Of a DNA stretch of 64,000 bases, positions 1 to 60,880 are shown piece after piece. The DNA is from Demequina salsinemoris (GTDB lineage Bacteria; Actinomycetota; Actinomycetes; Actinomycetales; Demequinaceae), in assembly GCF_000974805.1 (NCBI RefSeq), contig NZ_BBQZ01000007.1, positions 124,001-188,000 on the forward strand, written 5' to 3'. The position numbers and the translations under genes were made by a program. Below the pieces are notes generated by a model. The model had not been told where the DNA came from and ran no database searches. It was given only the letters and a program-made list of their open reading frames with translations. The stretch's first letter is position 1. Each line of letters opens with the position of its first letter.

Positions 1-2100
1 GTTCGCGTTGTGGAGCTCCTCGGGGTTCATCCCGATGCCCGTGTCAGCGACCTCGACGACGTAGCCGTCCTCCGACGCGATGGTGCGGACCGCGACCATC
101 GTGCCGGGGTCGGAGAAGACGGTGGCGTTCTCCAACAGCTCCGCGAACAGGTGCGCGGTGGTGAGCGCCGAGTGGCCGACCATCTGCGGGTCGGCGTCGA
201 GCTGCAGGTCGATGCGCTCGTACAGCTCGATCTCGGACGATGCGGTACGGATCACGTCGGACAGCGGCATCGGGCGACGCAGGCGGCGTCCGGTGTCGAT
301 GCCGGCGAGCACCAGGAGCGACTCGGAGTTACGGCGCATCCGGGTCGCGAGGTGGTCGAGCGCGAACAGCTTGGTGAGCGTGTCGGGATCGTCCTCGGAG
401 CGCTCCATCTCGTCGATCGAGGCGAGCTGGCGGTTGAGGAGCACCTGGTCGCGACGCGCGACGTTGACGAACATCTCCGAGATCGAGCCACGCAGAGCGG
501 CCTGCTCGGCGGCGATGGACAGCGTCGCCGCGTTGACGCCGTTGAACGCCTCCGCGAGACGGCCGACCTCATCCTCGGACTCCACAGGGATCTGCACCTC
601 GGAGAGGTCCACGGTCTCACCCGGCATCGCGACCCGCTCCACCAGGCGCGGCAGCTCCTGGCGGACCGCGGTCGCGGTGGTGGTCAGGCGGCGAAGCGGG
701 TTGACGATGCGGCGGGCGATCGCGTTCGCGACGACGACGGCGATGAGGAACGCCGCGACGACCGCGGCGACGACGATGAGGAGCTGGGCGGTCAGCGACT
801 GCACGTCGGAGGTCGCGCCCGACTTGACCTCGTCCCACACCTGGTCGGCGAACGGCTGGTAGCGGGCGACCTCGTCATCGACGGCCTCGACCCAGGGCTC
901 GTCCTGCGCCGCGACGAGCGCCGAGTCGCCGCCGAGCAGCAGGGCGGTCTGGATCGCGGTGTAGTTGGTGCCGGTCGTGTCGGATGCGGTCGACGCGAAC
1001 GCCGGCACTGCGCTGAGCGTGGAGACGATCTCCGAAGACGTCTGGGCGTCCTCGAGTGAGAGGTCGGCGCGCACGGAGAGCTCGCGAAGCTCGCTCTCAC
1101 CGTTGTCGCCGAACTCACCGTCGAGGATGAGGCGCTGGACCACGATCTTCTCGTACTCGAGAGACTCGGTGAGCGCGGACAGGCGTCCGAACGCATTGAT
1201 TCGCGACGTGAGGGCGGCGTCCGCGGCGGCCGCGGACGCGGAGCTCGCGGCCTGGAGGTTCAGGGCGATCAGCTCGGAGTAGTACTCGAGCGTCGAGGAC
1301 GAGTTCGCCGAGCCGAGCGCCGCGGACTGGCGGGTGCTCTCCAACTCCTGAAGCAGCTCGTTTCCGTCCGCGACTCGTGCGAGAACCGCGGCGTTGTCGT
1401 CGTTGTCGGCGATGTCGGCGACCGAGTCGGTCAGCTCGGTGATCGCGCTCTCGGTCGGCGTCCACGCCGCGAGCATGCCCTCGAGGAACGGCACCGGCGT
1501 GGTGAAGAGGATGCGCGAGGCGAGACCCTCGGCGTCGAGGCTGGCCGCAAGCGTGTCGAGCTGGGTCGTGGTGCCCGTTGCGCTGGCGTCGGCGCTGACG
1601 GCGAGCTTCTCGACCGCGGCGGAGACATCGGCGTAGTCGAGTCGCAGCTGGTTCGCCGCGGAGGTCGTGGGGAAGGACAGGCCCTCCTCGGTCGTCTCGA
1701 TCGTGACGGAGCGGAGGTCGGGCAGGAAGTCGTCACTGGTGCCGAGCATCGACCCGACCCGCTTGATCAGCTGGTCGGCCGTTTCGGTGTCCTCCGAGGC
1801 CTCGAGCGCCGCGATCAGGTCCCCGTAGGCCTGGTTCGTCGCGAGGCGTGCGGCGGTCTGGTCGTTGCGCCCGATCTGAAGGGCGTCGAGGAAGCTGACC
1901 GCGTAGTAGCGCTCGTCGGTGAGCGCCTCACCGAGGTCACGAGCGTCATCGAGGGCGACGACGACCGTCTCGGCGTTGCGGGCGTAGCTGAGGTCGACCC
2001 AGGAGAATCCGACGACGCCGACACCGGTGAGCAGCAGCACAAGCAGCGGCACAGCGACTGTCAGCAGCATCTTGCTGCGGATACTCATTCTCTGGAGCAT
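1..2100 (-). CDS. Conservon-type sensor histidine kinase (C-terminus off the left edge)
   Basis: Membrane sensor kinase of the actinobacterial conservon (CvnA/nitrate-sensor-like) type. From the start there is a signal-anchor helix (about residues 10-32), a long helical Ala/Leu/Asp-rich extracytoplasmic region, a second membrane helix near residues 437-465 (window 700-790), a HAMP segment, an H-box reading DHLATRMRRN (around 340-400), an N-box reading HLFAELLENAT (121-180) and a G-box reading ADTGIGM at the window edge. Start ATG at 2100 has GGGAGAAG upstream; an in-frame ATG at 2088 is less likely. In Streptomyces such kinases are followed by roadblock, DUF742 and small GTPase genes; here those would lie left of the window. 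The ligand is unknown. Confidence 0.85.
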   Translation of the reverse strand, partial: MLQRMSIRSKMLLTVAVPLLVLLLTGVGVVGFSWVDLSYARNAETVVVALDDARDLGEALTDERYYAVSFLDALQIGRNDQTAARLATNQAYGDLIAALEASEDTETADQLIKRVGSMLGTSDDFLPDLRSVTIETTEEGLSFPTTSAANQLRLDYADVSAAVEKLAVSADASATGTTTQLDTLAASLDAEGLASRILFTTPVPFLEGMLAAWTPTESAITELTDSVADIADNDDNAAVLARVADGNELLQELESTRQSAALGSANSSSTLEYYSELIALNLQAASSASAAAADAALTSRINAFGRLSALTESLEYEKIVVQRLILDGEFGDNGESELRELSVRADLSLEDAQTSSEIVSTLSAVPAFASTASDTTGTNYTAIQTALLLGGDSALVAAQDEPWVEAVDDEVARYQPFADQVWDEVKSGATSDVQSLTAQLLIVVAAVVAAFLIAVVVANAIARRIVNPLRRLTTTATAVRQELPRLVERVAMPGETVDLSEVQIPVESEDEVGRLAEAFNGVNAATLSIAAEQAALRGSISEMFVNVARRDQVLLNRQLASIDEMERSEDDPDTLTKLFALDHLATRMRRNSESLLVLAGIDTGRRLRRPMPLSDVIRTASSEIELYERIDLQLDADPQMVGHSALTTAHLFAELLENATVFSDPGTMVAVRTIASEDGYVVEVADTGIGMNPEELHNAN

Positions 2101-2276
2101 CGACTCTTCTCCCTCGCCCTACGAATCGTCACCCGTAGGCGTCAGCCTCGCGCATCCGGTATGCGCCGGCACTCCCTGTTATCGACCCGGTCTTCGAGAA
2201 CATGAGCGCGTGTGGCCTGACTCACCCTGAGACGCTATACCGTCGTGACTATGACGGGACAGGGCCGGAGAGTGTG

Positions 2277-3239
2277 ATGAATATCACCCGCTGCGCCACA
2301 TCCGGAGGTCCGGAGGTGCTGAAACCAGCCACCTTCCGGGATCCGTCGGCGGGCCCCGGAGAGGTCATCATCGACGTTGCGGCATCTGGTGTCAATTATG
2401 CGGACGTCCTCCAGCGCCGGGGGCTCTACCCTTCGCCGCCTGGCGCTCCCGACTGGCCGGGGCTCGAGGTCGCAGGAACGGTCTCCGCGGTGGGCGAGGG
2501 CGTGACGGGACGATGCGTGGGCGACCGGGTGTGCGCGCTGACGTCGGGCGGCGGTTACGCGGAGCGGATCGCGATCCACGAGTCCCTCACGCTGCCCGTG
2601 CCCTCCGACGTCTCCATGGTCGAGGCCGCGGCGCTCGTCGAGGCCTCCTGCACGGCGCTGTCCAACCTGCGCGAGGCGTCCGCGATCCCCGGAGAGACGA
2701 TGCTCGTGCACGGGGGGCTGGGGGGCGTCGGGTCGATCGCGGTGCAGCTCGGCGCGGCGCTCGGGCTGCGGGTGCTCGCGACGGCAGGCGGCCGCGCGCG
2801 CGCCGACCGCTGCCTTGAGCTGGGCGCCGCGGCAGCGTTCGACTACCGCACCGAGGACTGGGCGACCGAGGTCTCCGCCCTCGGCGGCGCGGACATCATC
2901 CTCGACGTGGTCGGCGCCGCCTACCTCGAGCCGAACCTGCGCGCGCTTGCCACGGGCGGGCGGCTCGTCGTGATCGGCATGCAGCGGGGAGCGCGAGGCG
3001 AGCTCGACCTCGGGATGCTGCTCACGAAGCGGGCTCGGGTGATCGGCACCGCGTTGCGCTCTCGTCCTCTGGCCGAACGCGCGGCGATCGTGGCCGACGT
3101 GGAGCGCACGGCGTGGCCGCTCGTGCCCGAACGCGTGCGGCCGCTGGTCCACGCGACGTTCCCGCTCGCCGACGCGGCCTCGGCGCACACGATGCTCGAG
3201 GCCGGAGGGGTCACCGGCTCGCTCGTGCTGACGGTTTGA
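2277..3239 (+). CDS. NADPH:quinone oxidoreductase / zinc-type alcohol dehydrogenase-like protein
   Basis: Medium-chain dehydrogenase/reductase of the quinone oxidoreductase branch, about 320 residues, probably reducing quinones or enals with NADPH in the cytoplasm. Visible motifs are the N-terminal GroES-like fold with GVNYADVLQRRGLYP, the ERIAIHE stretch, and a Rossmann motif HGGLGGVGSIAVQLG near residue 145. The catalytic zinc cysteines of true alcohol dehydrogenases are absent, as in the QOR group. Start ATG at 2277 is preceded at 6 nt by GGAG. It is divergent from the sensor kinase and convergent with the AGE-family gene. Substrate not determinable. Confidence 0.85.
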   Translation: MNITRCATSGGPEVLKPATFRDPSAGPGEVIIDVAASGVNYADVLQRRGLYPSPPGAPDWPGLEVAGTVSAVGEGVTGRCVGDRVCALTSGGGYAERIAIHESLTLPVPSDVSMVEAAALVEASCTALSNLREASAIPGETMLVHGGLGGVGSIAVQLGAALGLRVLATAGGRARADRCLELGAAAAFDYRTEDWATEVSALGGADIILDVVGAAYLEPNLRALATGGRLVVIGMQRGARGELDLGMLLTKRARVIGTALRSRPLAERAAIVADVERTAWPLVPERVRPLVHATFPLADAASAHTMLEAGGVTGSLVLTV

Positions 3240-3300
3240 GCCTGCGCCCGCATCGTCCTTCTGCCTCCGCCCGCCGGCAACCTGACGACGAGAGGCCGGG

Positions 3301-4590: not shown

Positions 4591-4668
4591 CGCATCGTCC
4601 CTCCCCATCCCCGGACACTTTGAACCAATCTCGCCACCGACACGCGAGCGTGTCGCGGGACGATGCGG
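4591..4668. repeat. Inverted pair of the GGACGATGCG repeat
   Basis: CGCATCGTCCC at 4591-4601 and GGGACGATGCG at 4658-4668 are perfect 11-base inverted copies of the interspersed motif. They flank the left half of the palindromic element at 4614-4710. A related arrangement (12981 and 13061) flanks the second, partial copy of that element. Confidence 0.7.
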
Positions 4669-4710: not shown

Positions 4711-4804
4711 GGGCGGGCGCGGGGGGGGACAGGGGGACAGGGACGATGCGGCGGCCGGGCGGCGGGACGGGCGGGCCCGGCCGGGTCGGCCAGGCCGGGT
4801 CAGA

Positions 4805-8268: not shown

Positions 8269-9552
8269 ATGACCGACGCGTCCCCAGCGCCGAGCGCCCC
8301 CGATCGGCCCCGCCTGGATCGGCCCCGCCTCGCGACGCTCGCGCTCGCCCAGCTGGTCGCGGGCATCGGCGTCGCGGCGGGCATCTCGGTGGGAGCGCTG
8401 CTCGCGGAGGAGATCGCGGGCACGGCGGCGTGGTCGGGGCTGCCGCAGACCGCCCTGGTGCTCGGCTCGGCGCTCGCAGCCGTGCCGCTGGCGCGCCTTG
8501 CCGGACGACGCGGGCGTCGGGTCGCGCTCACGACGGGCTACGGCCTCGCGGCGGCGGGAGCCGCGCTCGCCTTCGCCGCAGGGACGATGCGGGTCCTCCC
8601 CCTCCTGCTGGTCGCGATGTTCGTCACGGGCGGCGGCATGGCGGCCGGCCTGCAGGCGCGGTTCGCCGCGACCGACGGGGTCGCTGACCATCTGCGCGGG
8701 CGCGTGCTGAGCATCGTGGTGTGGGCCTCCGCCGTGGGCTCCGTCGCGGGCCCGAACCTCCTGTCCCCGGGGACCGATCTCGGAGAGGCGCTCGGGGTGA
8801 CAGCGCTCGCGGGGCCGTGGCTGTTCGCGGTCGCGTCGCTCGCGATCGCCGCGGTCGGCATCGGCCTGCTGCTGCGCGATCCCAGGCCAGTCGCGCCCCC
8901 CGCTCCCCGCAGCATCGTCCGGACCCTGAAGGATCTGTGGGCCCACCCGTCGGGCCGACTCGGCCTGACCGCGATGGCCACGGGCCATGCGGTGATGGTG
9001 GGCGTCATGGCGATGTCGAGCGTGCACCTCCACGGGCACGGCTCGACGCTGACGTTCATCGGCGTCGTCGTCAGCGCGCACGTCGCGGGGATGTACGCGC
9101 TCGCGCCCGTGTTCGGCTGGATGACCGACCGGCTCGGACCGTGGGGCGCGGTGGGCGTCGGCGCCGCGCTTCTGCTCGCGGGCGCGATCCTGACCGCCGT
9201 CTCGGGGCGGATCGACGCCGCCGGCGGGATGCACAGCCATGCCGAGGGCTTCGCGACCGCGGGCCTCGTGCTGATCGGCCTCGGCTGGTCGGCGGCCACG
9301 ATCGCCGCGGCGACGCTCGTGTCCGTGCTGTCGCACGAGGGCACCGCGAGCCCGACGGACGTCCAGGGCGTCGCGGACCTCACGATGGGCATCGCGGGCG
9401 CCCTTGCGGGAGCCCTGTCAGGCGTCGCGCTGGCGGCGTGGGGCTACGACGGGCTGTCGATCGCGGGCGCGGCGCTGCTCATCCCGCTCGTGTGGGAGCT
9501 CATCCGCGCGAGGCGCCTCGACAGCGCGCACACGCACGCGCTCGAGAACTAG
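8269..9552 (+). CDS. Major facilitator superfamily transporter
   Basis: A 427-residue polytopic membrane protein with about 12 hydrophobic segments and the MFS cytoplasmic loop basic motif (RLAGRRGRRVAL near residue 75, and WMTDRLGPWGAV in the second half). A good GGAAGGAACC precedes the ATG. The substrate cannot be told; such stand-alone actinobacterial MFS proteins are often drug or metabolite exporters. Its TAG stop (9550-9552) interlocks with the stop codon of the convergent FMN reductase gene inside the shared tetramer ctag. Confidence 0.85.
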   Translation: MTDASPAPSAPDRPRLDRPRLATLALAQLVAGIGVAAGISVGALLAEEIAGTAAWSGLPQTALVLGSALAAVPLARLAGRRGRRVALTTGYGLAAAGAALAFAAGTMRVLPLLLVAMFVTGGGMAAGLQARFAATDGVADHLRGRVLSIVVWASAVGSVAGPNLLSPGTDLGEALGVTALAGPWLFAVASLAIAAVGIGLLLRDPRPVAPPAPRSIVRTLKDLWAHPSGRLGLTAMATGHAVMVGVMAMSSVHLHGHGSTLTFIGVVVSAHVAGMYALAPVFGWMTDRLGPWGAVGVGAALLLAGAILTAVSGRIDAAGGMHSHAEGFATAGLVLIGLGWSAATIAAATLVSVLSHEGTASPTDVQGVADLTMGIAGALAGALSGVALAAWGYDGLSIAGAALLIPLVWELIRARRLDSAHTHALEN

Positions 9553-12135: not shown

Positions 12136-12963
12136 TCAGCGGATGGTGACCTGACGCGAGACGAGGCCCGCGCGGGCACGACGCTCGTCGGCCGTGAGCG
12201 GCGCATCGTCCGCGAGCGCCGCGGCGAGCTTGGGCGCGAAGGCGGCGACCGGCTTCTCGAGCTCGTCGGGCTCGGTGCCCGCGACCATCTCCCACACGGG
12301 GATCTGGAGGCCGCACGCGCGGAAGGCGCCGAGGAGCTTGGTGCCCTCCTCGATCGCGGTCTCGCGCTTGGCCTGGAGGCGCGCGAGCGCGTCGAGCAGC
12401 TTCTCCTCGTCCACCGACTGACCCCAGCGCAGGTACTCGCGCGCACCCATGCGGCACCAGTAGGCGCCGTCGACGGAAGCGAGCTTGACGGTGGGGAAGA
12501 TCCCCTCGTTGGCCTGCTCGAGCGCGGCCTGCACCTCGGGGTCCTTCTCGCCCTCGGGAAGCCAGAAGTCGTAGCCCTCGGTCACGGTGACCGCCCACGG
12601 CACGGTGGGGTCGAGGATGTCCTGGAGGCGCGGTCCGGCCTCGAGGTTGCCGAGCTGCGGAAGCAGGTCACCCTCCTCGAGGTCCTTCGCCGCGAGGATC
12701 GCCGCGGCGATGTCGCGCGACGGGTCTCCCGAGGCGCCCGCGCCGCGCATCGCGACGAGCAGCAGGCCGTCCTTGCGGCGCATCGCGGGGCGGTCCAGGG
12801 GCAGGACGGTCACGAGCAGGAGGTCGTCGCCGCCGAACTCGGCCGTCAGCCTCGCGGGCGCCGAGGCGGCGGGCACGATCTCGCGCATCGCGACGAGGTC
12901 GACCTCTCCTGCCAGGCCCTCGAAGGGACGGGGAACGAACGGGACGCGGTTCTTCTTCGCCAT
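12136..12963 (-). CDS. DUF5926 family protein
   Basis: 275-residue cytoplasmic protein of a conserved actinobacterial family of unknown function, starting MAKKNRVPFVPRPFEGL with the typical basic start. The rest is acidic, with a GYDFWLPEG segment, YWCRMGAREYLRWGQ near residue 175, and a helical C-terminus that may be a coiled coil. No catalytic motif that I recognise. ATG at 12963 lacks a Shine-Dalgarno sequence and has TACCCT eight bases upstream, so it may be leaderless. Its neighbours pheA and serS are recurrent partners of this family as I remember it. Confidence 0.75.
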   Translation of the reverse strand: MAKKNRVPFVPRPFEGLAGEVDLVAMREIVPAASAPARLTAEFGGDDLLLVTVLPLDRPAMRRKDGLLLVAMRGAGASGDPSRDIAAAILAAKDLEEGDLLPQLGNLEAGPRLQDILDPTVPWAVTVTEGYDFWLPEGEKDPEVQAALEQANEGIFPTVKLASVDGAYWCRMGAREYLRWGQSVDEEKLLDALARLQAKRETAIEEGTKLLGAFRACGLQIPVWEMVAGTEPDELEKPVAAFAPKLAAALADDAPLTADERRARAGLVSRQVTIR

Positions 12964-13016: not shown

Positions 13017-13072
13017 GACAGTTCGAACCAATCTCACTGGCGACACGCGAGCGTGTCCCAGGACGATGCGGC
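13017..13072. repeat. Palindromic element B, partial copy
   Basis: GACAGTTCGAACCAATCT at 13017-13034 is identical to the inverted right end of the element at 4614-4710, followed by the same core hairpin (CGACACGCGAGCGTGTC at 13041-13057) and GGACGATGCGG (13061-13071). The right half is missing; element A begins 30 bp further on. Confidence 0.6.
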
Positions 13073-13101
13073 GGCCAGGACGATGCTCGGGCTCCCAGAC
13101 A

Positions 13102-13210: not shown

Positions 13211-13258
13211 GGACGATGCGGTTCGGTGGCTTGGACGCGACGGTCACCGCATCGTCCA
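13211..13258. repeat. Inverted pair of the GGACGATGCG repeat
   Basis: GGACGATGCGGT at 13211-13222 and ACCGCATCGTCC at 13247-13258 form a perfect 12-base inverted repeat with a 24-base spacer, about 60 bp upstream of pgm. Same arrangement as at 35399-35442. Confidence 0.7.
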
Positions 13259-15034: not shown

Positions 15035-15820
15035 ATGCGTTCCGCCCTCGCCGTCACCCTGCTCGCCGCCGCCTCCTTGGCGCTGAGCCCAGCCGCGACC
15101 GCGGCGACGTCGGGCACCCCGTCGCCCACCGCATCGTCCTCATCGACCGCATCGTCCAGCGCCGCCCCGTCCAGCGCCGCCCCGGCCGAGCAGGGCTACT
15201 CCTTCCCCGACTCGTGCGACGCATCGTCCATCAACATCTCCGACTCCGACTGCGTGGACGGCAGGACCGACATCGATCTGCATGAGGACGGCACGGCCAC
15301 CTGGGTGAGCCAGACCGCCTACCCACGCGCGGCCTTCGACGCGTATCTGGTCGAGTACGAGGGATGGGACGGCACGACCCAGGAGTACATGGACGAGCAG
15401 CTCGCCGACTCCGAGGACAGCACGGGCACGTCGGAGGCGACCGTGACCGACGACCTCGTGCTCGTCGACATCACGTACGAGCTCACGGGCGACGACGCGT
15501 ACCAGACCGGGTTCGCCCTCGCCGCCGACGACGAGCTCTACGTCGCGATCGCCGTGGACGATGTCGCGGGATCCTCGACCGTCACCCTCACCGCGCCCGG
15601 CACCATCCAGGAGGCCAACGGCTACGTCGACGGCACGACGGTCACCTGGGACGCGGAGCTGCTGGCAGGGACCGACGAGCTCGACGTCAACGCGCTCACC
15701 TCGATCGAGTCCGACGGGTCGCTTCCCGTCTGGCTGTGGCTCGTGGGCGGAGCGCTGCTCGCCGTGATCGGGGTCGCGGGCTGGCTCGGCTTCGGCAGGC
15801 GCGCAGGGGACGACGGCTGA
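15035..15820 (+). CDS. Exported LppM-like protein with C-terminal membrane anchor
   Basis: 261 residues: a cleavable signal peptide (about 1-23, ending ATA-AT), a Ser/Pro/Thr/Ala-rich linker (24-50), an acidic extracellular domain, and one C-terminal membrane helix (about 231-251) ending in basic residues. Its distal half (APGTIQEANGYVDGTTVTW) resembles the corresponding part of the next two genes, marking it as a divergent LppM/DUF3153-like paralog, but without a lipobox. ATG preceded by TAGGCT at six bases. Three copies of the GCATCGTCC repeat encode Ala-Ser-Ser in the linker region. Function unknown. Confidence 0.6.
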   Translation: MRSALAVTLLAAASLALSPAATAATSGTPSPTASSSSTASSSAAPSSAAPAEQGYSFPDSCDASSINISDSDCVDGRTDIDLHEDGTATWVSQTAYPRAAFDAYLVEYEGWDGTTQEYMDEQLADSEDSTGTSEATVTDDLVLVDITYELTGDDAYQTGFALAADDELYVAIAVDDVAGSSTVTLTAPGTIQEANGYVDGTTVTWDAELLAGTDELDVNALTSIESDGSLPVWLWLVGGALLAVIGVAGWLGFGRRAGDDG

Positions 15821-15870: not shown

Positions 15871-16896
15871 ATGAACGCGACACTCACGCGCGCGGGGAGG
15901 GCCATCGCGGTCGCCCTCTTCGCCACGCTCGCACTGACAGGCTGCATCAAGGTGGACTTCGAGCTGGTGCTCCAGCCGGACGACACCGTCGACGGCTCCA
16001 TCACCTACGCGATCGCGCAGGGCTCAGGCGAGCTCATGTCCGACGATGAGACGACGTACACCGATGAGGACCTGCTCGACAGCCTCTTCGGCGACATCGA
16101 CGCGTCGGAGTACGCGAACGGCGTCCTCAGCGACTTCACCGACGACGACTGGGTCGGCAAGACCATCACGTTCGAGGGCGAGGAGCTGTCCGGCTTCTCG
16201 CTCGACGAGGACACCGAGGGCGTGACGATCACGCGCGAGGGCGACGAGTTCGTCATCTCCGGTCCGTACTCCACGAGCGAGGAGGACATGACCGAGGGCA
16301 TGGACGGCGCCGAGATGTCGATGACCGTCACGTTCCCTGGTGAGATCACCGAGACCAACGGCACCCTGAGCGAGGACAAGCACACGGTCACGTGGGACCT
16401 CCTGGACCCGCCGGAGTCGCTCGAGGCGCGCGGTGGCGCGACCGAGGGCAGCGACTTCCCGATGTGGATCGTCTACGTCGCCGCGGGAGTCGTGGCGCTC
16501 GCCGCGATCGTGGTCGTCGTTGTCGTCCTCGTGAGCCGCAAGGGCAAGAAGAAGGGCTCCGAGGCCGAGGGCGCCGACGAGACCACGGCCGGCGTCGCAG
16601 CCGCGCCGATGATGCTGCCCGTGGACGCGATCCCCGCCACGCCCGGCGAGGTGCCGGGGGACGTCGTCATCCCCGACGCGGACGACGAGCCGCCGTTCGA
16701 GCCGACGCCCAAGGAGGACGAGTCCACGCCGACCGAGATCCTGCCGACCGAGGAGTCCGAGGACGATGCGGCAGCCGAGGACGAGGAGTCGGTCGCCGAC
16801 GAGGACGAGGACCACGGGGCCGATGCCTGGGACGATGACGAGGTCGATGCCTGGGACGACGATCCCATCGACGACGACGGCGACGTGAAGGACTGA
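15871..16896 (+). CDS. LppM family lipoprotein with membrane anchor
   Basis: 341 residues. The N-terminal signal ends in the lipobox LTGC (Cys near residue 25), followed directly by IKVDFELVLQPDDTVDGS, the start of an LppM (DUF3153) domain. A C-terminal membrane helix (about 208-230) leads to a very acidic cytoplasmic tail rich in Asp/Glu with the repeated unit DAWDDD. LppM of mycobacteria is a surface lipoprotein affecting the envelope; that role is inferred only. ATG at 15871 has GATCGT six bases before it. Middle member of a three-gene paralogous run. Confidence 0.75.
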   Translation: MNATLTRAGRAIAVALFATLALTGCIKVDFELVLQPDDTVDGSITYAIAQGSGELMSDDETTYTDEDLLDSLFGDIDASEYANGVLSDFTDDDWVGKTITFEGEELSGFSLDEDTEGVTITREGDEFVISGPYSTSEEDMTEGMDGAEMSMTVTFPGEITETNGTLSEDKHTVTWDLLDPPESLEARGGATEGSDFPMWIVYVAAGVVALAAIVVVVVVLVSRKGKKKGSEAEGADETTAGVAAAPMMLPVDAIPATPGEVPGDVVIPDADDEPPFEPTPKEDESTPTEILPTEESEDDAAAEDEESVADEDEDHGADAWDDDEVDAWDDDPIDDDGDVKD

Positions 16897-16946: not shown

Positions 16947-17894
16947 ATGGAGTTCCATCCCGAGGCGCCCCGGCCGCGTCGTCTCCGGACCCTCGCGTCG
17001 GCCGGGGTCCTCGCACTCGCGCTCGCGGGCTGCGTGCGCCTCGACTCCGCGACCGAGCTGAAGGCGGACGACACCTTCGACCAGCATCTCGTGATCGCGC
17101 TCGCGCCCGACATCGGGGATGAGCTGAGCAGCGGCGCGGCCTCCGGCCTCGGCTCGGGGCTGGGCGACCTCACCGAGCTGGGCGATGCGATGGACGGGCT
17201 CTCGCTCGAGGACCTTGACCCCTCCGCGCTGTATGACGAGCTCGCGGACAGCGAGGAGCTCCAAGCCTTCGAGGACGAGCACCCGGGCCACGTGACGCTC
17301 GAGCCCTACGATGACGGCGAGCTCGTCGGCGTCGAGCTGACCCTCACCGACCTGCCGCTGTCCCTGTACGACCAGGCGCTCGCCGGCGCGGGTGCGGACG
17401 TGGGCCTCGCCGCGACGATCGAGCATGCCGACGGCGAGTTCGTGGTGACGATCCCGGCCGACGAGGCACGCGACGCATCGTCCCTGGGGCTGACCTCCGC
17501 CAACCTCGCGCTGCTCGGCAGCGCGGTCGAGGTCGAGGTGAGCTTCACGTTCCCCGGCCTCGTGACCGAGGCGCCCGACGGGACCGCCGAGGGTCGCACC
17601 GCGACCCTCGCGCTCGAGGACCTGCTCACTCCCGACGAGATCCGCATCGTCGCCTCCGACGAGCGCCAGATCTACTGGGCGCCGATCCTGACCTGGGGCG
17701 GCATCGTGCTGGCGGCGATCGTGATCGTGGGCGGCGCGACCCTGCTCGTGCTCCAGGACGTCCGGGCGCGACGTCACACCGGCCTGCCCGCGCCCGACGC
17801 ACGTCACGAGAGCCGGATCGGCACGCTCGAGCCAGACGAGCCCGAGGTGGCCCCCGACGACGACTCCGGGCAGGAGGAACCCCCCGCAAGGTGA
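16947..17894 (+). CDS. LppM family lipoprotein
   Basis: 315 residues. The basic N-terminus and hydrophobic segment end in the lipobox LAGC (Cys near residue 30), then VRLDSATELKADDTFDQH as in other LppM proteins. A C-terminal membrane helix (about 252-273) is followed by an acidic/basic tail. It lies 51 bp after its paralog and just before an MFS gene. ATG at 16947 is chosen because it follows GAGGGA and precedes the charged signal region; a TTG at 16929 would add six residues. Function unknown, presumed cell envelope. Confidence 0.75.
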   Translation: MEFHPEAPRPRRLRTLASAGVLALALAGCVRLDSATELKADDTFDQHLVIALAPDIGDELSSGAASGLGSGLGDLTELGDAMDGLSLEDLDPSALYDELADSEELQAFEDEHPGHVTLEPYDDGELVGVELTLTDLPLSLYDQALAGAGADVGLAATIEHADGEFVVTIPADEARDASSLGLTSANLALLGSAVEVEVSFTFPGLVTEAPDGTAEGRTATLALEDLLTPDEIRIVASDERQIYWAPILTWGGIVLAAIVIVGGATLLVLQDVRARRHTGLPAPDARHESRIGTLEPDEPEVAPDDDSGQEEPPAR

Positions 17895-19170: not shown

Positions 19171-20358
19171 TCAGCAGCCGCAGGCGAACCAGGTGGCGGC
19201 GTTGTCGGTCGCGGCACCCCACTCGATGCTCCCGTCCCACGTGCCGCCATCGGCCTCCGGCATGGCCTCGAGCTCGGACACGTCCCCGGAGTCGATGTCG
19301 ATGCTCACGACCGCGGTGTCCTCCCCGTCCGCGCCCCAGGTCTCCACGAGGAGGGCGCGGTCCGCGAAGCGAAGGTCGAGGCTCGTCGTGTCCAGGCCCG
19401 ACGCCTCGTCGATCGTGAACTCGTAGGACGTGTCCGCGGCCAGGTCGTAGACGACGAAGACGCTGTCGAGCTCCCCGTCGAGACGGAGCGCCACCAGCTC
19501 GCCGTCGTCGGAGACCGTCCTGCCCCACGTTCCCGGGTAGGACCACTCGGAGTCGATGTCCGGGTAGGTGTCCACCAGGGACGATGCCGACCACTCGCCG
19601 GTCGCCGCGTCCCACCGATAGTGCTTGGTCCCGTTGTCCGAGGTCGCGCTCCAGAGCTCGTTGCCCGCGGCATCGGCCGCGACGAACGCGGGTGACGACG
19701 CCTTCGCGCCGTAGACCGCGAACGTGAGATCCTCGGTCTTCCCCGTGCGCAGGTCGTAGCGCGCCGCGCCATCGGCCCACTCGAGGCGGATGTACCCCTC
19801 GTCCTCGACCCACGAGACGACGCGCGCGTCGTCCCACATGCGCTTCGGCAGCTGCCCGACCTCGAAGTACACCTCCTCCGGGCTCACGAGGTAGACCACC
19901 GCCGCGGGCTGCGTCCACGCCTCGTCGTAGTAGTACTGCTGCGTCGCCACCACCTCCACGGCCCAGTCCTCGCCCACGCGGTCCCACACCCAGTCCTCCA
20001 TCACGAGGGCGTCGGGGTAGGAGATGGCGTTGCTGTACTCCAGGGCGGTGTTGGGATCGGTGCGGGTCGCGGCAGCCGCCGGGTACTCGTCGTCCAGGAT
20101 GCCGTCCGCGTCGCCCGCGTACGGGTCGACAGAATCGCTCGGCTCGGCGCTCGGGCTGGCGCTCGCGCTGGGTTCGGCGGTGGCCGAGGACGATGCGACG
20201 ACCGGCTCGGCGGACGCCGTCGCGGTCACCTCCACGTCCGGGGCGGCCTCCACGCCACCCTTGGAGCCCGCGAGCGCCCACCCGACACCGACCGCGAGCA
20301 CCGCGACAGCGCCGACGGCCCCGCCGATCCAGGCATTCCTCGAGATCCTCACAGCCAT
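19171..20358 (-). CDS. Membrane-anchored beta-propeller-like protein ending in Cys-Gly-Cys (paralog 2)
   Basis: 395 residues: short cytoplasmic start, one membrane helix (about 9-28), a Ser/Ala/Pro linker, then a Trp-rich extracytoplasmic domain with repeated segments of WD40/TolB-like look (SWVEDEGYIRLEWADG, NELWSATSDNGTKHYRWD). The protein ends WFACGC. It is about half identical by eye to the preceding gene, but lacks that gene's ~45-residue cytoplasmic N-terminus. ATG at 20358 follows a GAGGGGG 10 bp after the paralog's stop. Third gene of an ECF sigma operon. Unknown function; sensor or anti-sigma accessory are guesses. Confidence 0.6.
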   Translation of the reverse strand: MAVRISRNAWIGGAVGAVAVLAVGVGWALAGSKGGVEAAPDVEVTATASAEPVVASSSATAEPSASASPSAEPSDSVDPYAGDADGILDDEYPAAAATRTDPNTALEYSNAISYPDALVMEDWVWDRVGEDWAVEVVATQQYYYDEAWTQPAAVVYLVSPEEVYFEVGQLPKRMWDDARVVSWVEDEGYIRLEWADGAARYDLRTGKTEDLTFAVYGAKASSPAFVAADAAGNELWSATSDNGTKHYRWDAATGEWSASSLVDTYPDIDSEWSYPGTWGRTVSDDGELVALRLDGELDSVFVVYDLAADTSYEFTIDEASGLDTTSLDLRFADRALLVETWGADGEDTAVVSIDIDSGDVSELEAMPEADGGTWDGSIEWGAATDNAATWFACGC

Positions 20359-23598: not shown

Positions 23599-23620
23599 CT
23601 CAGGAACGCATCGTCCTGAG
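23599..23620 (+). promoter_or_regulatory. Hairpin occluding the TerC ribosome binding site
   Basis: CTCAGGA pairs perfectly with TCCTGAG around a loop that contains the GCATCGTCC repeat. The right arm abuts and partly includes GAGGAG, the ribosome binding site for the ATG at 23628. This is a plausible expression platform for the upstream riboswitch. Confidence 0.5.
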
Positions 23621-34083: not shown

Positions 34084-34087
34084 GACG

Positions 34088-35314: not shown

Positions 35315-35398
35315 CCACGCGCTGAGAAGGCGCCCCCGCATCGTCCCTTCGCCGCCCGGCCCGTGAACCGGGGGCCGCTCGCCGTGTGAGACGATATG

Positions 35399-40920: not shown

Positions 40921-40944
40921 CCGACGGGCCGAATGGGGATCACC

Positions 40945-41438: not shown

Positions 41439-43760
41439 CTAGCGGACGGCCTTGGTGGCCTCGATGAGGTGCTCGAGGCTAGCGACGGTCTCCTTGTAGC
41501 CGCGAGTCTTGAGACCGCAGTCGGGGTTGACCCACAGCTGGCGGCCGGGGATCGACTCCTTGGCGAGGCTCAGCAGCTCGGTCATCTCCTGCGTGGAGGG
41601 CACGCGCGGCGAATGGATGTCCCACACGCCCGGCCCGATCTGGCGCTCGTAGCCGTGGGTGCGGATCGCGGGCAGCACCTCCATGCGGGAGCGCGCGGCC
41701 TCGATCGACGTGACGTCGGCGTCGAGGCCGTCGATCGCGTCGATGATCTCGCTGAACTCCGAGTAGCACAGGTGGGTGTGGATCTGCGTGTCGTCCTTGG
41801 CGCCCGCGGTGGACAGGCGGAACGAGCCGACCGACCACTCGAGGTACGCGGCCTGGTCGCGCTTGCGCAGCGGCAGGAGCTCGCGCAGGGCGGGCTCGTC
41901 GACCTGGATGATGCCGATGCCCGCGGCCTCGAGGTCGGTGACCTCGTCGCGCAGCGCGAGACCGACCTGGTCGGCGGTGACCCCGAGAGGCTGGTCGTCG
42001 CGCACGAACGACCACGCGAGGATCGTGACCGGGCCGGTGAGCATGCCCTTGACCGGCTTGGTGGACAGCGACTGCGCATACTGGGCCCAGCGCACCGTCA
42101 TCGGCGCGGGGCGCGAGACGTCGCCCCACAGGATCGAGGGGCGCGTGCAGCGCGAGCCATAGGACTGGACCCAGCCGTTCTTCGTGACCGAGAAGCCGTC
42201 GAGCAGCTCGGCGAAGTACTGGACCATGTCGTTGCGCTCGGCCTCGCCGTGCACGAGCACGTCGAGCCCGAGGTCCTCCTGGAGGCCGATGACCGAGTCG
42301 ATCTCGGCCTTCATCGCGTCCTCGTAGGCGGCGTCGTCGATCTCGCCCTTGGCCCACGCGGCGCGGGCCTTGCGGATCTCTGCGGTCTGCGGGAACGAGC
42401 CGATGGTCGTGGTCGCGAGCTCGGGCAGGTCGAAGCGGTCGTGCTGGGCCGCCTCACGCGCCACGTACGAGGAGCGATCGCGGTCCGCGGGGGTGACGGC
42501 CGCGAGCGCCGCGCGCACGTCGGCGCGGTTGGTGCCCGGGTGCGCGGCGCGGTCGGCGAGGGCCGCACGAGCCTCGGCGAGCGCGTCGGCGACGGCGTCC
42601 TCACCCTCCCGCAGCGCGGTCGCGAACGTGACGACCTCGCCGATCTTCTCGTCGGCGAACGACAGCCAGCTGAGCAGCTCCTCGCCCAGGTGCTCCTCGC
42701 CCTTGAGGGTGTGGGGCACGTGGAACAGCGAGGTCGCGGTGCCGACCGTGACGGCGCCGCCGAGCTCGGCGACGGCCGCGAGCTTCGCGAGCGCCTTGTC
42801 AGGGTCAGTGCGCCAGATGTTGTGGCCGTCGACGACGCCCGCGACGACCGTGAGACCCGCGAGGTCGACGTCGGTCGGGACCGCACCCTTGACGAGGTCG
42901 AGCGCGACAGCCTCGACGCCGGACGATGCGAGGACGGGCAGGGCGTCCTCGAGCGAGCCCATGGGGGCGGCGACGAGGATCTGCGGGCGGTCCGTGGACG
43001 ATGCGAGGGCCGCGTAGACCTTCTCGGCGCCTGCGAGCACGTCCTCACGGGAGGCGTCGATGTCGGCGACCAGGACGGGCTCGTCGATCTGGACCCACTC
43101 GGCTCCCGCGGCCTTGAAGGCCGCGAGGAGCTCGACGTAGATCGGGAGCAGGTCGTCAAGGCGCTCGATCGGCGCGAAGCCCGTGGGCGCATCGTCCGTG
43201 GGCTTGGCGAGGTACAGGTAGGTGAGCGGGCCGGTGATGACCGGGCGGGTGAGGAAGCCCGCCTCCTTGGCCTCGACGAACTCGTCGACCCAGCGGGTCG
43301 ACGACAGCGCGAAGACCGTCTCGGGGCCGATCTCGGGGACCAGGTAGTGGTAGTTCGAGTCGAACCACTTGGTCATCTCGAGCGGGGCGTCGGCGCCCTC
43401 GCCGCGGGCGATGGTCGAGTAGCCGGCGAGATCCACCGAGCCGTCCTCGGCGCGCAGGCGCGAGAAGCGGGCGGGGATCGCGCCGAACGTCACCGACGCG
43501 TCGAGCACGTGGTCGTAGAACGAGAAGTTGGAGGGGATGGACGAGTCGTCCTTCGTAAGGCCCAGCTCGGCCATGCGCTCGCGCGTGACGGACCGGAGCT
43601 GCTTCGCGGTCGCCTCGAGGTCGGACTGGGCGGTGTTGCCCTTCCAGAACGACTCGAGCGCCTTCTTGAGCTCACGGTTACGGCCGATGCGGGGATAACC
43701 CAGGACGGTGCCACCGGGGAACGCGGGTGCGGTCGCGGCAGCATCAAAGTTGTCAGACAT
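41439..43760 (-). CDS. metE: Cobalamin-independent methionine synthase
   Basis: 773 residues, the full two-barrel MetE. It transfers the methyl group of 5-methyltetrahydropteroyl-triglutamate to homocysteine. Zinc ligands are visible in HTHLCYSEF (His, Cys; near residue 663), [12 protein letters not shown] (Glu/Asp region, near 500) and [10 protein letters not shown] (Cys, near 748); the N-terminus [19 protein letters not shown] is standard. ATG follows GAGGTAG. The ~190-bp leader shows no cobalamin riboswitch. With metF and gcv genes it completes a one-carbon route in this window. Confidence 0.97.
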
Positions 43761-46239: not shown

Positions 46240-46683
46240 TCAGCTCACCCCGCCGATGCGGTTCCACCACGACAGCAGCAACGCCCCCACCACGATCCCT
46301 GCGACGTAGCCCGCATTCTCGAGCGCCCACCGGCGCCAGAAGCCTCGATCGAGTCGCCCGCGCCGACGCGCCTCCCACACAGTCGCGACGGCGGCCACCG
46401 CCACGCCGAGGCCAACGGTGACGACGAGCATCGTCGGCACGGAGACCTCGATCCCCACCGAATCCGCCAACTCGAATGCCGCGATGCCGAGCAGGAGCAG
46501 CCAGAGCCAGCTCAGCCGCGGTTCCCCGAGGACGATGCGCCAGCGCGGGGCGTCGACCGGGTCGCCGGCGCCTTCGCCGGGGTCCCGCACCGATGCGGCC
46601 CCCTTGAGCCACCAGCCGACCGCGGCGAGCCCCGCGAGCACGAGCGTCACCGCGCCGAGCAGGATCGTCACGACGTCACTCAC
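46240..46683 (-). CDS. Small polytopic membrane protein
   Basis: 147 residues with four hydrophobic segments (about 5-25, 50-68, 78-97, 122-140) and a basic loop WEARRRGRLDRGFWRR. No family recognised. GTG at 46683 overlaps the preceding gene by 8 bases and has AGGT upstream. Forms a two- or three-gene unit of membrane proteins. Confidence 0.5.
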   Translation of the reverse strand: MSDVVTILLGAVTLVLAGLAAVGWWLKGAASVRDPGEGAGDPVDAPRWRIVLGEPRLSWLWLLLLGIAAFELADSVGIEVSVPTMLVVTVGLGVAVAAVATVWEARRRGRLDRGFWRRWALENAGYVAGIVVGALLLSWWNRIGGVS

Positions 46684-46918
46684 GCTCGGACCTCGTGCGG
46701 CGCGCGAGGGATGCCACGGCGAAGCCTGCCGCCGCGGCGAGGACGCTTCCGCCGACCACGACCACTGTGCCGGCGCGCTCGAGCGCGACCGAGGCGGCGC
46801 CGGCGGCGACGAGGAAGCAGACGATCCCGAGCATCGTCCTGGCGGCACGCGAGCGCAACGGCTCGAACCCCCACACGAGACAGGCGGCGAAGATCACCGC
46901 CCACGCACCCCAGACCAC
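46676..46918 (-). CDS. Small membrane protein
   Basis: 80 residues, three hydrophobic segments (about 3-18, 28-45, 50-68), ending RRTRSERE. GTG at 46918 is chosen for GGGGG five bases upstream, the same arrangement as the ECF sigma start; an in-frame ATG at 46957 would add 13 polar residues. No known family. First gene of a small membrane-protein operon, 88 bp from the end of metF. Confidence 0.5.
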   Translation of the reverse strand: MVWGAWAVIFAACLVWGFEPLRSRAARTMLGIVCFLVAAGAASVALERAGTVVVVGGSVLAAAAGFAVASLARRTRSERE

Positions 46919-47006
46919 GGATCCCCCTGCATGTCGCGATGCGGGCGGGCGCCGCATCGTCCCCGCAGTCTACGGGCGCGCGGCACCGGGTGTCGCGCCC
47001 CCGGTT

Positions 47007-47903: not shown

Positions 47904-48070
47904 GGCGGGAAGAATACGCACGTTCGAGAGGCGATGCTGTGGACAGGTGTCGGTCATCCTGGCTCCCCGAAGCGGCCCGGCGTCGTCCACAGGGACGATG
48001 CGACAGCTCGGTCTCCCCACGTGTCCGGCGCCGTTCTGGTCGCGTCAGGGGCGGGAGGCAGACTGGGGGC

Positions 48071-49525: not shown

Positions 49526-50101
49526 TCAGCAGAAGCCCTTGCGCAGCCTCGCGATCGCGTCGTCCAGGAGCGCCTCGACGATGCGCGTGTCCGCGGGCAG
49601 CCACGGCACGTCGCGCCAGGCGCCGGGCTCGAGCCAGCGCAGCTCGTCGTGGTCCTCGAGCGGCCGCGGCTCGGGATCGGACCCGTCCGCACCAGGGACG
49701 ATCTTCGCCCACCAGACCCTCAGGACCAGCCTGGGCCCGTCGCCCTCGGCGGCGCGGAGCTCCCACGCGGGGCCCGTGTCGGTGCCGTCGGGCAGGACGA
49801 TGCCGGGGTCGGGTCCGACGATCTCGTCGCCGATCTCGATCGCGACGCCGAGCTCCTCGTCGATCTCGCGGTGGAGCGCCTCCTCGGGCGTCTCGCCCTC
49901 GTCGACCTTGCCGCCGGGGAACTCCCACAGGCCCGCGTAGACGGGCGGCGCCGAGCGGCGCGCGGCGAAGAGCAGGCGCGGCTGATCGAGGTCGTCGGTG
50001 ATGGCGGCCGCGACCACGAGCCGCGCGGGGCCGTTGACGGGGATCTGGGGGATCTGACCGTGGGGATCGTCACCGCCCGGGGAGACGGCGTCCACGGTCA
50101 C
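49526..50101 (-). CDS. NUDIX hydrolase (MutT-like 8-oxo-dGTP diphosphatase)
   Basis: 191 residues. [12 protein letters not shown] start of the fold, [21 protein letters not shown] with REIDEELGV forming the Nudix box (G-x5-E-x7-REUxEExGU) near residue 60. The C-terminal half carries Trp-rich [18 protein letters not shown], as in MutT. Expected to clean oxidised nucleotides. GTG at 50101 overlaps the gcvH stop as GTGA, placing it at the tail of the glycine cleavage cluster. Confidence 0.85.
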
Positions 50102-50513: not shown

Positions 50514-51674
50514 TCAGGCGCCCCTCTTGTAGAACGGTAGCGCGGTCACGGTCATCGTCTCGCGACGACCGCGCACATCGATGCCCACCTCGGTGCCGGG
50601 GGCGGCGAGCGCGAGGGGAACATAGGCCATCGCGATGGGCTTGCCGAGCGTCGGCGACGGCGCACCCGAGGTGACCTCGCCGACCGCCTCTCCCGCATCG
50701 TCCAGGACCGCGTAGCCGGCGCGCGCGGCGCGTCGGCCGTCGCCGACCAGGCCCACCAGGGTCGACAGGGACGATGCGGCGGCGGTGTCCTCGGCGGCCT
50801 TCCAGGTCTCGCGCACGGCCTCGAGCGCGGTGCGGCCCACGAAGTCGCCGCGGGGGTTCTTCTCGGTGCCGAAGACGACGACGCGGCCCAGGCCGGCGTC
50901 GAACGGCGTGCGTGCGCGGCTCAGCTCGTTGCCGTACAGCGGCATGCCTGCCTCGAGGCGGAGCGTGTCACGGCAGGACAGGCCGCAGGGGATCAGGCCG
51001 TCAGCCGCGCCTTGCGCGAGCGCGAGCTGCCACACGGCCGCCGCCTCGTCGGCGCCGACGAACAGCTCGAAGCCGTCCTCGCCCGTGTACCCGGTGCGGG
51101 CCGCGAACACGTGGATGCCGCCGGCGAGCATGACGTTGGCTGCCGAGTAGTACTTCATGGCCTCGATGTCGTCGGCGCCGCGCGCGGTCATGCGGGACAC
51201 GATCGCCTCCGCGCGCGGACCCTGGACGGCGATGAGCGCCACCTGGTCGGAGATGTCCTCGACCTCGGCGTCGAAGCCCTCGACGCGCTCGGTGAGCTCC
51301 GCGAAGACCACGTCCTTGTTGGACGCGTTGGCGACGATCACGAAGTGATCCCAGTCGCGGCGGTACACGATGAGGTCGTCGATCACGCCGCCGTCGGCGG
51401 CGCAGATCATCGTGTACTTGGCTCCCCACAGCTTGACGGCGCTCATCCGACCCACGAGCGCATCGTCCAGGAAGGCCTCGGCGTCGGCGCCGCGCACCGA
51501 GATCTCGCCCATGTGGCTCAGGTCGAACAGGCCTGCCGCGGTGCGAACCGCGGTGTGCTCCGCGATGTCGCCCGTGTAGCGGACCGGCATCTCCCAGCCG
51601 GCGAAGTCCACGAGCGTCGCGCCGAGGGCGACGTGCTCGTCGTGCAGGGGGGAGCGGAGCGTCTCAGTGGTCAC
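50514..51674 (-). CDS. gcvT: Glycine cleavage system T protein (aminomethyltransferase)
   Basis: 386 residues; releases ammonia and makes methylene-THF. LVDFAGWEMPVRY near residue 22, LFDLSHMGEISVRG near 48, RTGYTGEDGFELF near 195 and CGLSCRDTLRLEAGMPLYG near 225 (folate-binding Asp/Glu) are typical. GTG at 51674 has TACGCT six bases upstream, so it may have its own leaderless promoter despite lying in the gcv cluster. Three copies of the interspersed repeat are inside. Confidence 0.96.
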   Translation of the reverse strand: MTTETLRSPLHDEHVALGATLVDFAGWEMPVRYTGDIAEHTAVRTAAGLFDLSHMGEISVRGADAEAFLDDALVGRMSAVKLWGAKYTMICAADGGVIDDLIVYRRDWDHFVIVANASNKDVVFAELTERVEGFDAEVEDISDQVALIAVQGPRAEAIVSRMTARGADDIEAMKYYSAANVMLAGGIHVFAARTGYTGEDGFELFVGADEAAAVWQLALAQGAADGLIPCGLSCRDTLRLEAGMPLYGNELSRARTPFDAGLGRVVVFGTEKNPRGDFVGRTALEAVRETWKAAEDTAAASSLSTLVGLVGDGRRAARAGYAVLDDAGEAVGEVTSGAPSPTLGKPIAMAYVPLALAAPGTEVGIDVRGRRETMTVTALPFYKRGA

Positions 51675-59086: not shown

Positions 59087-59200
59087 CGCCGCCCGGGTGA
59101 GGCGCATGGAGGACAGGGACGATGCGGGACCCAGGGACGATGCTGCGGTCGCCTGAGGCGCGGGCCGGCACGATTGCAGAGCACGTCGTCCCGAGGCACG

Positions 59201-60880
59201 TCACGCCGCCTGGATCGAGCTCCCCATCTGCGCGGCCCCTCCCTGGGCCCCGAGCGCGACGAAGGGCGCGTCCGCAACCGGGACGCCGGCGATGCGGATG
59301 ATCGAGGCGAGCGTCCAGGGGCGCGAACCGTCGACCTGCTCGGTCGAGTCGCGGTTGTCGTCGTAGCCCCACAGCAGCGAGTCCTCGCCGGGCATCCAGC
59401 CCGGCTCCTGGTTGACCCAGGACGTCGGGTCGCCTTTGAGCAGCCCCGCGAACGTGGACGCCACGAGCATCGAGCCGACCGTGCCGAGCCGCCTGCCCTG
59501 CTGCTGCTCCTGCGCCTCCGTGAGGATGTACAGCCACAGCGCGTCGCGATCCGCGGGGATCGCGATCGGCTCGACCCCGAGCGCCTTGGCGACCGCGGTA
59601 CCCGACGGCAGGCCCATGCGCCAGCCGCGCTTGAGGTTGCGGAACGCGAGCCGGTTGAGGAACGACGACGGGTCCAGGTCCTCATCGAGCGCGGACAGAG
59701 AGTTGGACAGCAGCGCGTCGAAGCGGCGCGCGCGCTGCGGGAATCCCGCGTCGGGGTTGCCCATCGGCAGGTAGCGGTCCCACTGGATGAGCCGCTCGGC
59801 GCCCATCGGCCGGAACCCGTGAAGGTCCGCGCCGTCGGGGGCGAGCGCGAAGATCGGGATCTCCTTGCCTCCCTGCGACGCGTTGGTGCGGTAGCTGTTG
59901 CGCACGAGCGTGTGGCCGAAGCGATACGCGGCGACCGAGAACTCGATCGGGATGAAGGGGCGGTCGCGCCAGCTGTAGACATCGCCGAAGCCGGTCGCCC
60001 ACGTCTTGCGCCCCGCCACCGCATCGTCCCCTGCCGGGTCGTGCAGCGCATGCTCCCAGACGTCGGGATCGCACACGCGCTGCACGAAGTCGAACCAGAA
60101 CACGTGCTGGTACAGCCAGCGCAGGGTGCGCCGCGCGCGCTCGAAGGGCTCGTTCTCCGACGCCACGGGAGCGCCCATGCCGGCCGCGCGCTCCGCGTCG
60201 ATGCGCTCGCGCGCCCGCTCGACGAGCGCGTTGTGGGCCATCAGGAACGCGAGCTGGAGCTGGCTGACCATCGCGTTCTCGTCGTTGCGCATGTCACCGA
60301 TCAGCGCGCGCCCCTGCGAGTTGCGCGGCAGGTCGTGGAACGCGACCTCCTCGCCATCGACCGTGACGCACAGGGCGTTGCCCTCGGAGTCGCGCGCGGG
60401 GTCCACGAGGAGCTCGCCCGCGTGGTCGCGGCGCTGGTCGTACAGGTACGGCTGGTCGCCTGGGCCGCGCCCGTAGATGCAGTCGAGGTCGAGCCTCGGC
60501 GTGCGGAAGTTGAGCAGGCCGTTCGGATCGGTGGCCCGCTGCAGGCTCGACGCCGGATCGAAGGTGATGTCGTGATCGACGAACTGTCCGAAGTACGTGT
60601 AGCCGGCGGGCATGCCGGAATCGAACTCGGTGTCGGGGCCCGGCCCCGCGGCGACGATCGCCTCGGCGGTCCGGCCAGGGCGCTCGGTGATGGTGTCGGC
60701 GAGCTCCGCGAGCAGAGCGTCGGCCTCCTCGTCGGAGATGGGACGATGCGGATCCGCCGAGGGCCCGCGTCGTGGCGACCAGGCGGCGAGATCGGGGAAG
60801 AGCCGTCCGAAGGGTCCCTGATACAGAGGCGACTGCGGAGCGAGCGGTGACAGTGAGCTGATTCCAGTGCGGTGCGACAT
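59201..60880 (-). CDS. Animal-type haem peroxidase (peroxicin-like)
   Basis: 559 residues of the peroxidase-cyclooxygenase superfamily. TYFGQFVDHDITFDP near residue 105 carries the distal His and the Asp that links to haem; LIGDMRNDENAMVSQLQLAF near 190 matches the conserved Arg-rich active site; YRFGHTLVRNSYR near 320 contains the proximal His. No export signal is obvious. Bacterial members make hypohalous acids or oxidise lipids; the role here is unknown. ATG at 60880 follows GGGGG. Stand-alone gene. Confidence 0.85.
   Translation of the reverse strand: MSHRTGISSLSPLAPQSPLYQGPFGRLFPDLAAWSPRRGPSADPHRPISDEEADALLAELADTITERPGRTAEAIVAAGPGPDTEFDSGMPAGYTYFGQFVDHDITFDPASSLQRATDPNGLLNFRTPRLDLDCIYGRGPGDQPYLYDQRRDHAGELLVDPARDSEGNALCVTVDGEEVAFHDLPRNSQGRALIGDMRNDENAMVSQLQLAFLMAHNALVERARERIDAERAAGMGAPVASENEPFERARRTLRWLYQHVFWFDFVQRVCDPDVWEHALHDPAGDDAVAGRKTWATGFGDVYSWRDRPFIPIEFSVAAYRFGHTLVRNSYRTNASQGGKEIPIFALAPDGADLHGFRPMGAERLIQWDRYLPMGNPDAGFPQRARRFDALLSNSLSALDEDLDPSSFLNRLAFRNLKRGWRMGLPSGTAVAKALGVEPIAIPADRDALWLYILTEAQEQQQGRRLGTVGSMLVASTFAGLLKGDPTSWVNQEPGWMPGEDSLLWGYDDNRDSTEQVDGSRPWTLASIIRIAGVPVADAPFVALGAQGGAAQMGSSIQAA

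Follow-up and report, generated by a model that had tools for sequence, protein, structure and literature searches.

The DNA uptake sequence (DUS) of the Neisseriaceae, GCCGTCTGAA (PMC6370729), occurs in dialects that share a core and follow phylogeny, with 2,245–5,918 copies in the genomes named and, in one genome, two dialects together (PMC3630211). The uptake signal sequence (USS) of the Pasteurellaceae, AAGTGCGGT, forms terminators when paired in Haemophilus (PMC5217627). Singly mismatched copies of known uptake sequences are scarce, although Bakkali found some excess of them in H. influenzae and N. gonorrhoeae (PMC1939737). A competence system based on a Tad/Flp pilus has been described in Micrococcus luteus, and the available part of that report does not mention such a word (PMC6370729). 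A search by title and start of abstract, with most subscription papers and all preprints outside its range, returned no report of an uptake sequence in Actinobacteria. Here we describe a 9-base word, GGACGATGC, that is repeated throughout a 64,000-nucleotide stretch of the actinobacterium Demequina salsinemoris (positions 124,001 to 188,000 of contig NZ_BBQZ01000007.1, hereafter the window). We put at about 0.75 the probability that it is a DNA-uptake-type sequence that exists in several dialects in a Gram-positive genus and is apparently unconnected with the known systems, uptake itself being what we infer.

The window contains 59 copies of the 9-mer, 33 on the plus and 26 on the minus strand, spanning position 235 to positions 60741–60749, close to the 32 and 23 copies of the original prediction. 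Its total of about 55 holds for the 9-mer but not for the 12-mer in its title, GGGACGATGCGG, which occurs 13 times. Chance expectations were taken from Markov or shuffle models: dinucleotide shuffles gave a mean of 1.88 and a maximum of 5 copies (100 shuffles) and an order-3 Markov model gave 3.1, so that the earlier estimate of less than one was too low, but the excess stands. At every length from 8 to 12, the top-ranked words of the window were GGACGATGC, its pieces or its extensions. The copies are as follows.

235..243, + strand, GGACGATGC copy
2508..2516, + strand, motif copy, intergenic
3250..3258, - strand, motif copy, intergenic
4592..4600, - strand, motif copy, intergenic
4658..4666, + strand, motif copy, intergenic
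4741..4749, + strand, motif copy, intergenic
8582..8590, + strand, motif copy
8912..8920, - strand, motif copy
12203..12211, - strand, motif copy
13061..13069, + strand, motif copy, intergenic, direct pair with 13078
13078..13086, + strand, motif copy, intergenic
13211..13219, + strand, motif copy, intergenic
13249..13257, - strand, motif copy, intergenic
15131..15139, - strand, motif copy, direct pair with 15149
15149..15157, - strand, motif copy
15221..15229, - strand, motif copy
16761..16769, + strand, motif copy
17475..17483, - strand, motif copy
19579..19587, + strand, motif copy
20188..20196, + strand, motif copy
21398..21406, + strand, motif copy
22971..22979, + strand, motif copy
23608..23616, - strand, motif copy, intergenic
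23665..23673, - strand, motif copy
24662..24670, + strand, motif copy, direct pair with 24683
24683..24691, + strand, motif copy
25835..25843, - strand, motif copy, intergenic
28012..28020, - strand, motif copy
29953..29961, + strand, motif copy, intergenic, direct pair with 29967
29967..29975, + strand, motif copy, intergenic
30575..30583, - strand, motif copy
31708..31716, + strand, motif copy
32394..32402, - strand, motif copy, the sole intact one in genome G028 among 31 aligned sites
33141..33149, + strand, motif copy
34083..34091, + strand, motif copy, gene edge
34170..34178, - strand, motif copy
35338..35346, - strand, motif copy, intergenic
35399..35407, - strand, motif copy, intergenic
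35434..35442, + strand, motif copy, intergenic
36752..36760, - strand, motif copy
39182..39190, + strand, motif copy
39640..39648, - strand, motif copy
40449..40457, + strand, motif copy
40560..40568, + strand, motif copy
42921..42929, + strand, motif copy
42996..43004, + strand, motif copy
43189..43197, - strand, motif copy
46530..46538, + strand, motif copy
46831..46839, - strand, motif copy, gene edge
46954..46962, - strand, motif copy, intergenic
47993..48001, + strand, motif copy, intergenic
49795..49803, + strand, motif copy
50695..50703, - strand, motif copy
50769..50777, + strand, motif copy
51460..51468, - strand, motif copy
59117..59125, + strand, motif copy, intergenic, direct pair with 59135
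59135..59143, + strand, motif copy, intergenic
60021..60029, - strand, motif copy
60741..60749, + strand, motif copy, intergenic according to the gene caller

The excess extends over the whole genome, which refutes confinement to this region, an outcome that the original prediction had named as fatal to it. The 3.21-Mb draft contains 1,403 copies of the 10-mer GGACGATGCG (713/690 by strand; reversed control, 4) and 299 of the 12-mer (159/140; reversed control, 0). In 488 kb (the window, 20 stretches of 20 kb and two of 12 kb), the 9-mer occurred 301 times against 14.8 expected from the order-3 model with motif copies masked. Every sampled 20-kb stretch contained the motif, and its 8-mer part GACGATGC occurred on average once per 1.03 kb (404 kb). 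Such a large genome-wide excess of a short non-palindromic word is what is found for uptake sequences. The 12-mer was restricted to its clade, with 0–15 copies in each of the 393 other genomes among 394 searched in the class, a draw in which this genome was the sole member of its genus.

Also as in uptake sequences, no bias of strand or coding orientation was detected. Within single contigs the strand counts were balanced (70/72 in C14 and 50/51 in C15), so the strand bias that would have pointed to a Chi- or KOPS-type (FtsK-orienting polar sequence) function is absent. In a 464-kb sample with 282 copies (the window and 20 further 20-kb stretches), 95 of the 196 in-gene copies ran in the same direction as the gene and 101 in the opposite one. 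Synonymous-codon shuffling within each gene left 34.6 ± 4.7 copies (largest value, 49; 100 shuffles) of these 196, which rules out protein sequence or codon usage as the cause, in agreement with the original prediction; what preserves the motif therefore acts on the DNA word and not on the encoded protein. The predicted readings as Asp-Asp-Ala, Ala-Ser-Ser and Ile-Val were indeed the commonest frames (73, 48 and 47 copies; residues deduced from the frames). Of the copies in the window, 36 are wholly within called genes, 2 overlap a gene edge and 21 are intergenic, with called genes making up 88% of the sequence; in the 464-kb sample, 79 of the 282 copies were wholly intergenic, and genes made up 89%. 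Adjacent copies less than 100 bp apart formed 48 pairs against 18 expected, and many of the direct pairs were spaced by 14–21 bp, some of them within genes. The predicted absence from highly conserved genes was seen in the ranges taken as pgm, gcvP, glgP and two chemoreceptor genes (names assigned by reading), each with 0 copies; serS was not located, and a metE-like gene (41439–43760) has three copies, so that avoidance of conserved genes is not absolute.

We then defined the anatomy of the motif. Position 1 of GGACGATGC is loose (165 single-base variants observed against 48 expected), whereas positions 2–9 are strict, with 324 one-mismatch copies against 297 expected beside the 301 perfect ones. 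Singly mismatched copies are thus few relative to perfect ones, as described for known uptake sequences. The consensus was built from exact-core sites because iteratively fitted motif models drifted in several genomes. Around these cores in this genome, position −3 favours C (57%) and position −2 favours A (33%), followed downstream by G at +1, +2, +4, +5 and +8 and C at +7 (52–74%). The flanks of the 79 intergenic sites largely agree and add G at −1 (66%), and the extended form is roughly CAG-GGACGATGC-GGtGG(T/C)CG.C. The unit is therefore non-palindromic, with eight strict positions, GACGATGC, at its centre and weaker preferences that extend it to about 20 bases.

To place the motif within the genus, we compared 44 genomes, including that of D. 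salsinemoris. The spelling described above, dialect A (GGACGATGCG, GGGACGATGCGG), is abundant in 15 of them (711–1,564 copies of the 10-mer; reversed controls up to 9), and the remaining 29 have 10–235 copies. All 29 were sampled, mostly over 40–60 kb (20 kb in G005, G013 and G019; 4 kb in G030), and scanned without a preset word, and in many of them related words stood at or near the top. These were dialect B (GGGCCGATGC[CT]), dialect C (GGCCGATGCGC), dialect D (GCCCGACGCTG, in G009 and more weakly in G012) and dialect E (GGGACGATGCC, in G027); the 4-kb sample of G030 gave no clear word. Dialects D and E are known from these samples, and the whole-genome counts cover the A and B/C words. The 9-mer shared by B and C, GGCCGATGC, is found in 659–2,018 strand-balanced copies in 18 of the 44 genomes (reversed controls up to 111), in 113–219 copies in the word-poor G001, G003, G009, G012 and G028, and in 447–488 copies, above the reversed control, in several dialect-A genomes (e.g. 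G002, G011, G020 and G038). G022 carries both A (927 10-mers) and B/C (664 9-mers). All dialects have a common core, which reads CGATGC except in dialect D, where it is CGACGC, together with G at +5 after the 9-mer in A–E and A at −2 in A–C, the flank data for D and E coming from 27 and 13 sites.

In equal samples of 20 kb, the top 10-mer contained this core, in either form, in 16 of 25 congeners with a word to report, compared with 6 of the 71 such loci from other genera (out of 80 named loci), where each of the six was a CGACGCCGA word; when the five leading words were considered, the figures were 22/25 and 15/71. The strongest word reached a z-score of 31 in congener samples and 11 in the 80 named loci, although these scores are not strictly comparable, since the congener samples are longer than the loci (≤22 kb each); the equal-20-kb test is separate. 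Two 60-kb samples also contained a repeated word of at least 12 bases unlike the uptake-like words, with 8 copies each of GCCGTTGTTGCC in G003 (L149–L151) and CCTTGCTACCAG in G018 (L158–L160). In addition, GATGC, present in dialects A, B, C and E, and GACGC, present in dialect D, are the SfaNI and HgaI sites; the resemblance is perhaps a coincidence.

The dialects follow the species tree, which was built from seven proteins flanking the pilus locus in 40 of the 44 genomes (without G005, G007, G029 and G030). Dialect C forms one branch and B is its sister, save for G019, whose long branch makes its placement unsure, and A is found in a single branch that also holds E and the mixed G022, and again in a separate pair, G000 and G004. 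Mapping the dialect labels required 12 changes compared with 24.1 when they were shuffled, a value as low being reached in 0 of 200 shuffles; the labels ‘weak’ and ‘none’ used here are a matter of judgement, the ‘weak’ G036 and G042 having 718 and 659 copies of GGCCGATGC. Clustering on the phylogeny of lineage dialects with a shared core is a further property of uptake sequences found here.

Next we asked whether individual sites are kept between relatives, a comparison that the original prediction had proposed. Ten same-dialect pairs with no genome in common had 47 intact sites among 76 that could be aligned, compared with 24.9 expected from all equal-length windows of the same alignments and 21.9 expected from how well the sequences flanking the sites are conserved. 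A larger set of 13 same-dialect pairs, in which genomes overlap, gave similar results (60 of 98 against 33.4). Conversely, between this genome and G028, which has no detected motif, 1 of 31 aligned 9-mer sites was intact against 5.9 expected, and 4 of 44 8-mer sites against 9.9; three of five one-mismatch sites in G028 read GGACGACGC. The comparisons with G001 and G012 involved few sites (1/6, 0/8, 1/6 and 0/8 intact). Retention above expectation within a dialect and below expectation in G028 together indicate that the word is kept where its dialect is in use and elsewhere was lost or never gained.

The host also encodes the machinery expected for uptake. Contig C19 carries, between aroE and aroC, genes for pilB, pilT, pilC, a pilin, prepilin-like proteins, a prepilin peptidase, pilM and pilN/pilO-like proteins. 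PilB, PilT, PilC, the pilin, the peptidase and PilM are supported by Pfam; the pilO-like gene is below the Pfam cut-off and the pilN-like gene has no Pfam match. The contig further carries comEA-comEC, so that a type IV pilus, ComEA and ComEC are all present, and DNA would be taken up by the pilus. PilB is found in 44 of the 44 genus genomes, in some as fragments, and ComEC in 43, being missing only from G005 (85% complete); no loss of competence was seen among the motif-poor genomes. In the assemblies of G009, G027 and G041, ComEC is in two pieces, either because of errors in the sequence or because the gene is truly broken. All nine genus genomes searched for the leader, this one included, had a prepilin located away from the pilus operon, and the orphan prepilin in the window is a candidate part of the putative uptake pilus. 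A search of solved structures with it returned pilins only, matched by their N-terminal part. The loci concerned are:

40933..41382, + strand, orphan type IV prepilin, 149 amino acids, GFSLVELLVV leader
L013:11691-19845, motif-poor pilus operon

Two pilin-like matches on contigs C18 and C20 were rejected, as they have no prepilin leader by eye or by a leader model. Proteins at L273:6375-7822 and L274:5388-6011 are weakly similar to the orphan pilin and likewise have no leader; two such proteins have an N-terminal stretch resembling DUF2510. Across the genus the pilus operon exists in two divergent types that have been exchanged (L203–L242, L013/L014), and G004 and this genome, 93–95% identical in alaS (part), ruvX, aroC, aroK and aroB, are 77% identical in PilB.

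After the count, strand, shuffle, clade, dialect, conservation and mismatch tests and the survey of the machinery, an uptake or self-recognition sequence, as originally proposed, remains the best reading. A genome-wide, orientation-free word that is strict in its central bases, is kept as DNA and varies in spelling from clade to clade around a common core has the traits of the uptake sequences of Neisseriaceae and Pasteurellaceae. Like DUS, the motif is non-palindromic and highly repeated, has phylogeny-following dialects with a shared core, occurs in a host with a type IV pilus and includes a genome with two dialects (G022). Unlike DUS, its sequence is unrelated, its host is an actinobacterium, its copies are fewer and no ComP-like receptor was found, and uptake is predicted. 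It resembles USS, which has flanking preferences, in being a 9-base word with few singly mismatched copies and preferred flanks, but the sequence differs. We propose that the type IV pilus/ComEA machinery would include a receptor on the cell surface with a preference for double-stranded DNA bearing the local dialect, and that DNA of the same kind would enter via ComEC and then be recombined. Because intact copies would be re-imported more often than mutated ones, the word would accumulate and be kept by molecular drive. A change in receptor preference would give rise to a new dialect, and the old sites would decay.

Several observations weigh against this reading. Of the 48 close pairs, 34 are direct, 10 divergent and only 4 convergent, unlike the terminator-forming USS pairs of Haemophilus. 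No clear word was found without a preset word in G028 (60 kb) and G001 (40 kb) or in G013, G033 and G005 (20–40 kb), and G028 and G001 carry PilB and ComEC despite having no detected motif. These two are also the nearest relatives of the branch of this genome (G000 and G004), which lies apart from the main dialect-A clade, and because A occurs on two separate branches, loss, regain or exchange must be assumed. The pilus operon is itself motif-poor (0.14–0.28 per kb compared with 0.75–1.37 in its flanks; 28 genomes, three main dialects). Moreover, a dialect-specific receptor was not found among ComEA, the orphan pilin and the operon types: both types of operon are seen with dialect A; ComEA follows the species tree with no dialect signal (21 genomes); and the orphan pilin is only 43% identical between the close, same-dialect G000 and G004. 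A weak comparison of orphan pilins with dialect gave no signal, some of its entries (e.g. G015, G019, G021, G037 and G038) being operon pilins instead of orthologues and G028 being absent. The orphan pilin is acidic, whereas ComP is basic.

We weighed four other explanations. It is improbable, though the least so of the four, that the word is kept by DNA methylation or repair bias in the manner of HIP1 of cyanobacteria, which is likewise short, highly iterated and genome-wide and is tied to orphan methyltransferases (PMC4390886). The retention of GATGC or GACGC in the dialects would fit such a cause, but HIP1 is palindromic, whereas this motif is not and shows weak preferences across a span of some 20 bases, and dialects that differ at few positions while sharing flanks fit a protein reader of evolving specificity. 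A Chi-like recombination sequence, read by a nuclease of the RecBCD/AdnAB type, would also be short, over-represented and lineage-variable. Chi is enriched on the leading strand, however, and the balance within contigs (the origin was not mapped) and within genes indicates no such enrichment, making this explanation very unlikely.

We consider it highly improbable that the motif is a chromosome-organising site for a nucleoid-associated, segregation or FtsK-type protein; its presence in every sampled 20-kb stretch, with the 8-mer once per 1.03 kb on average, would suit that role, but there is no orientation bias, the close relatives G028 and G001 do without it, dialects turn over inside one genus, and the direct pairs at 14–21 bp, some in genes, would be unusual for such sites. 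Equally remote is a micro-repeat or mobile element that proliferates by its own copying and does nothing for the host. The clustering of copies into mostly direct pairs and their enrichment between genes would be consistent with this, yet no longer unit was seen, with only weak preferences outside the core; codon choice accommodates the in-gene copies; and spelling changes are graded among congeners, with sites preferentially kept within a dialect.

Overall, we regard as likely an independent origin of sequence-specific self-DNA uptake in a Gram-positive actinobacterial genus, with a family of at least five spellings around a shared core, two of which come so far from samples of one or two genomes; the dialects may have been lost and regained or exchanged, and may act as reproductive barriers. 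In the literature searched, uptake sequences belong to the Neisseriaceae and Pasteurellaceae, both Gram-negative, and the present one would be the third, in a Gram-positive lineage and seemingly of independent origin. If so, several dialects in one genus would provide a natural series on the origin of such tags, on the joint change of receptor and tag and on the isolation of species. Natural competence would be predicted in the genus, and the dialects would show which tag DNA meant for transformation should bear.

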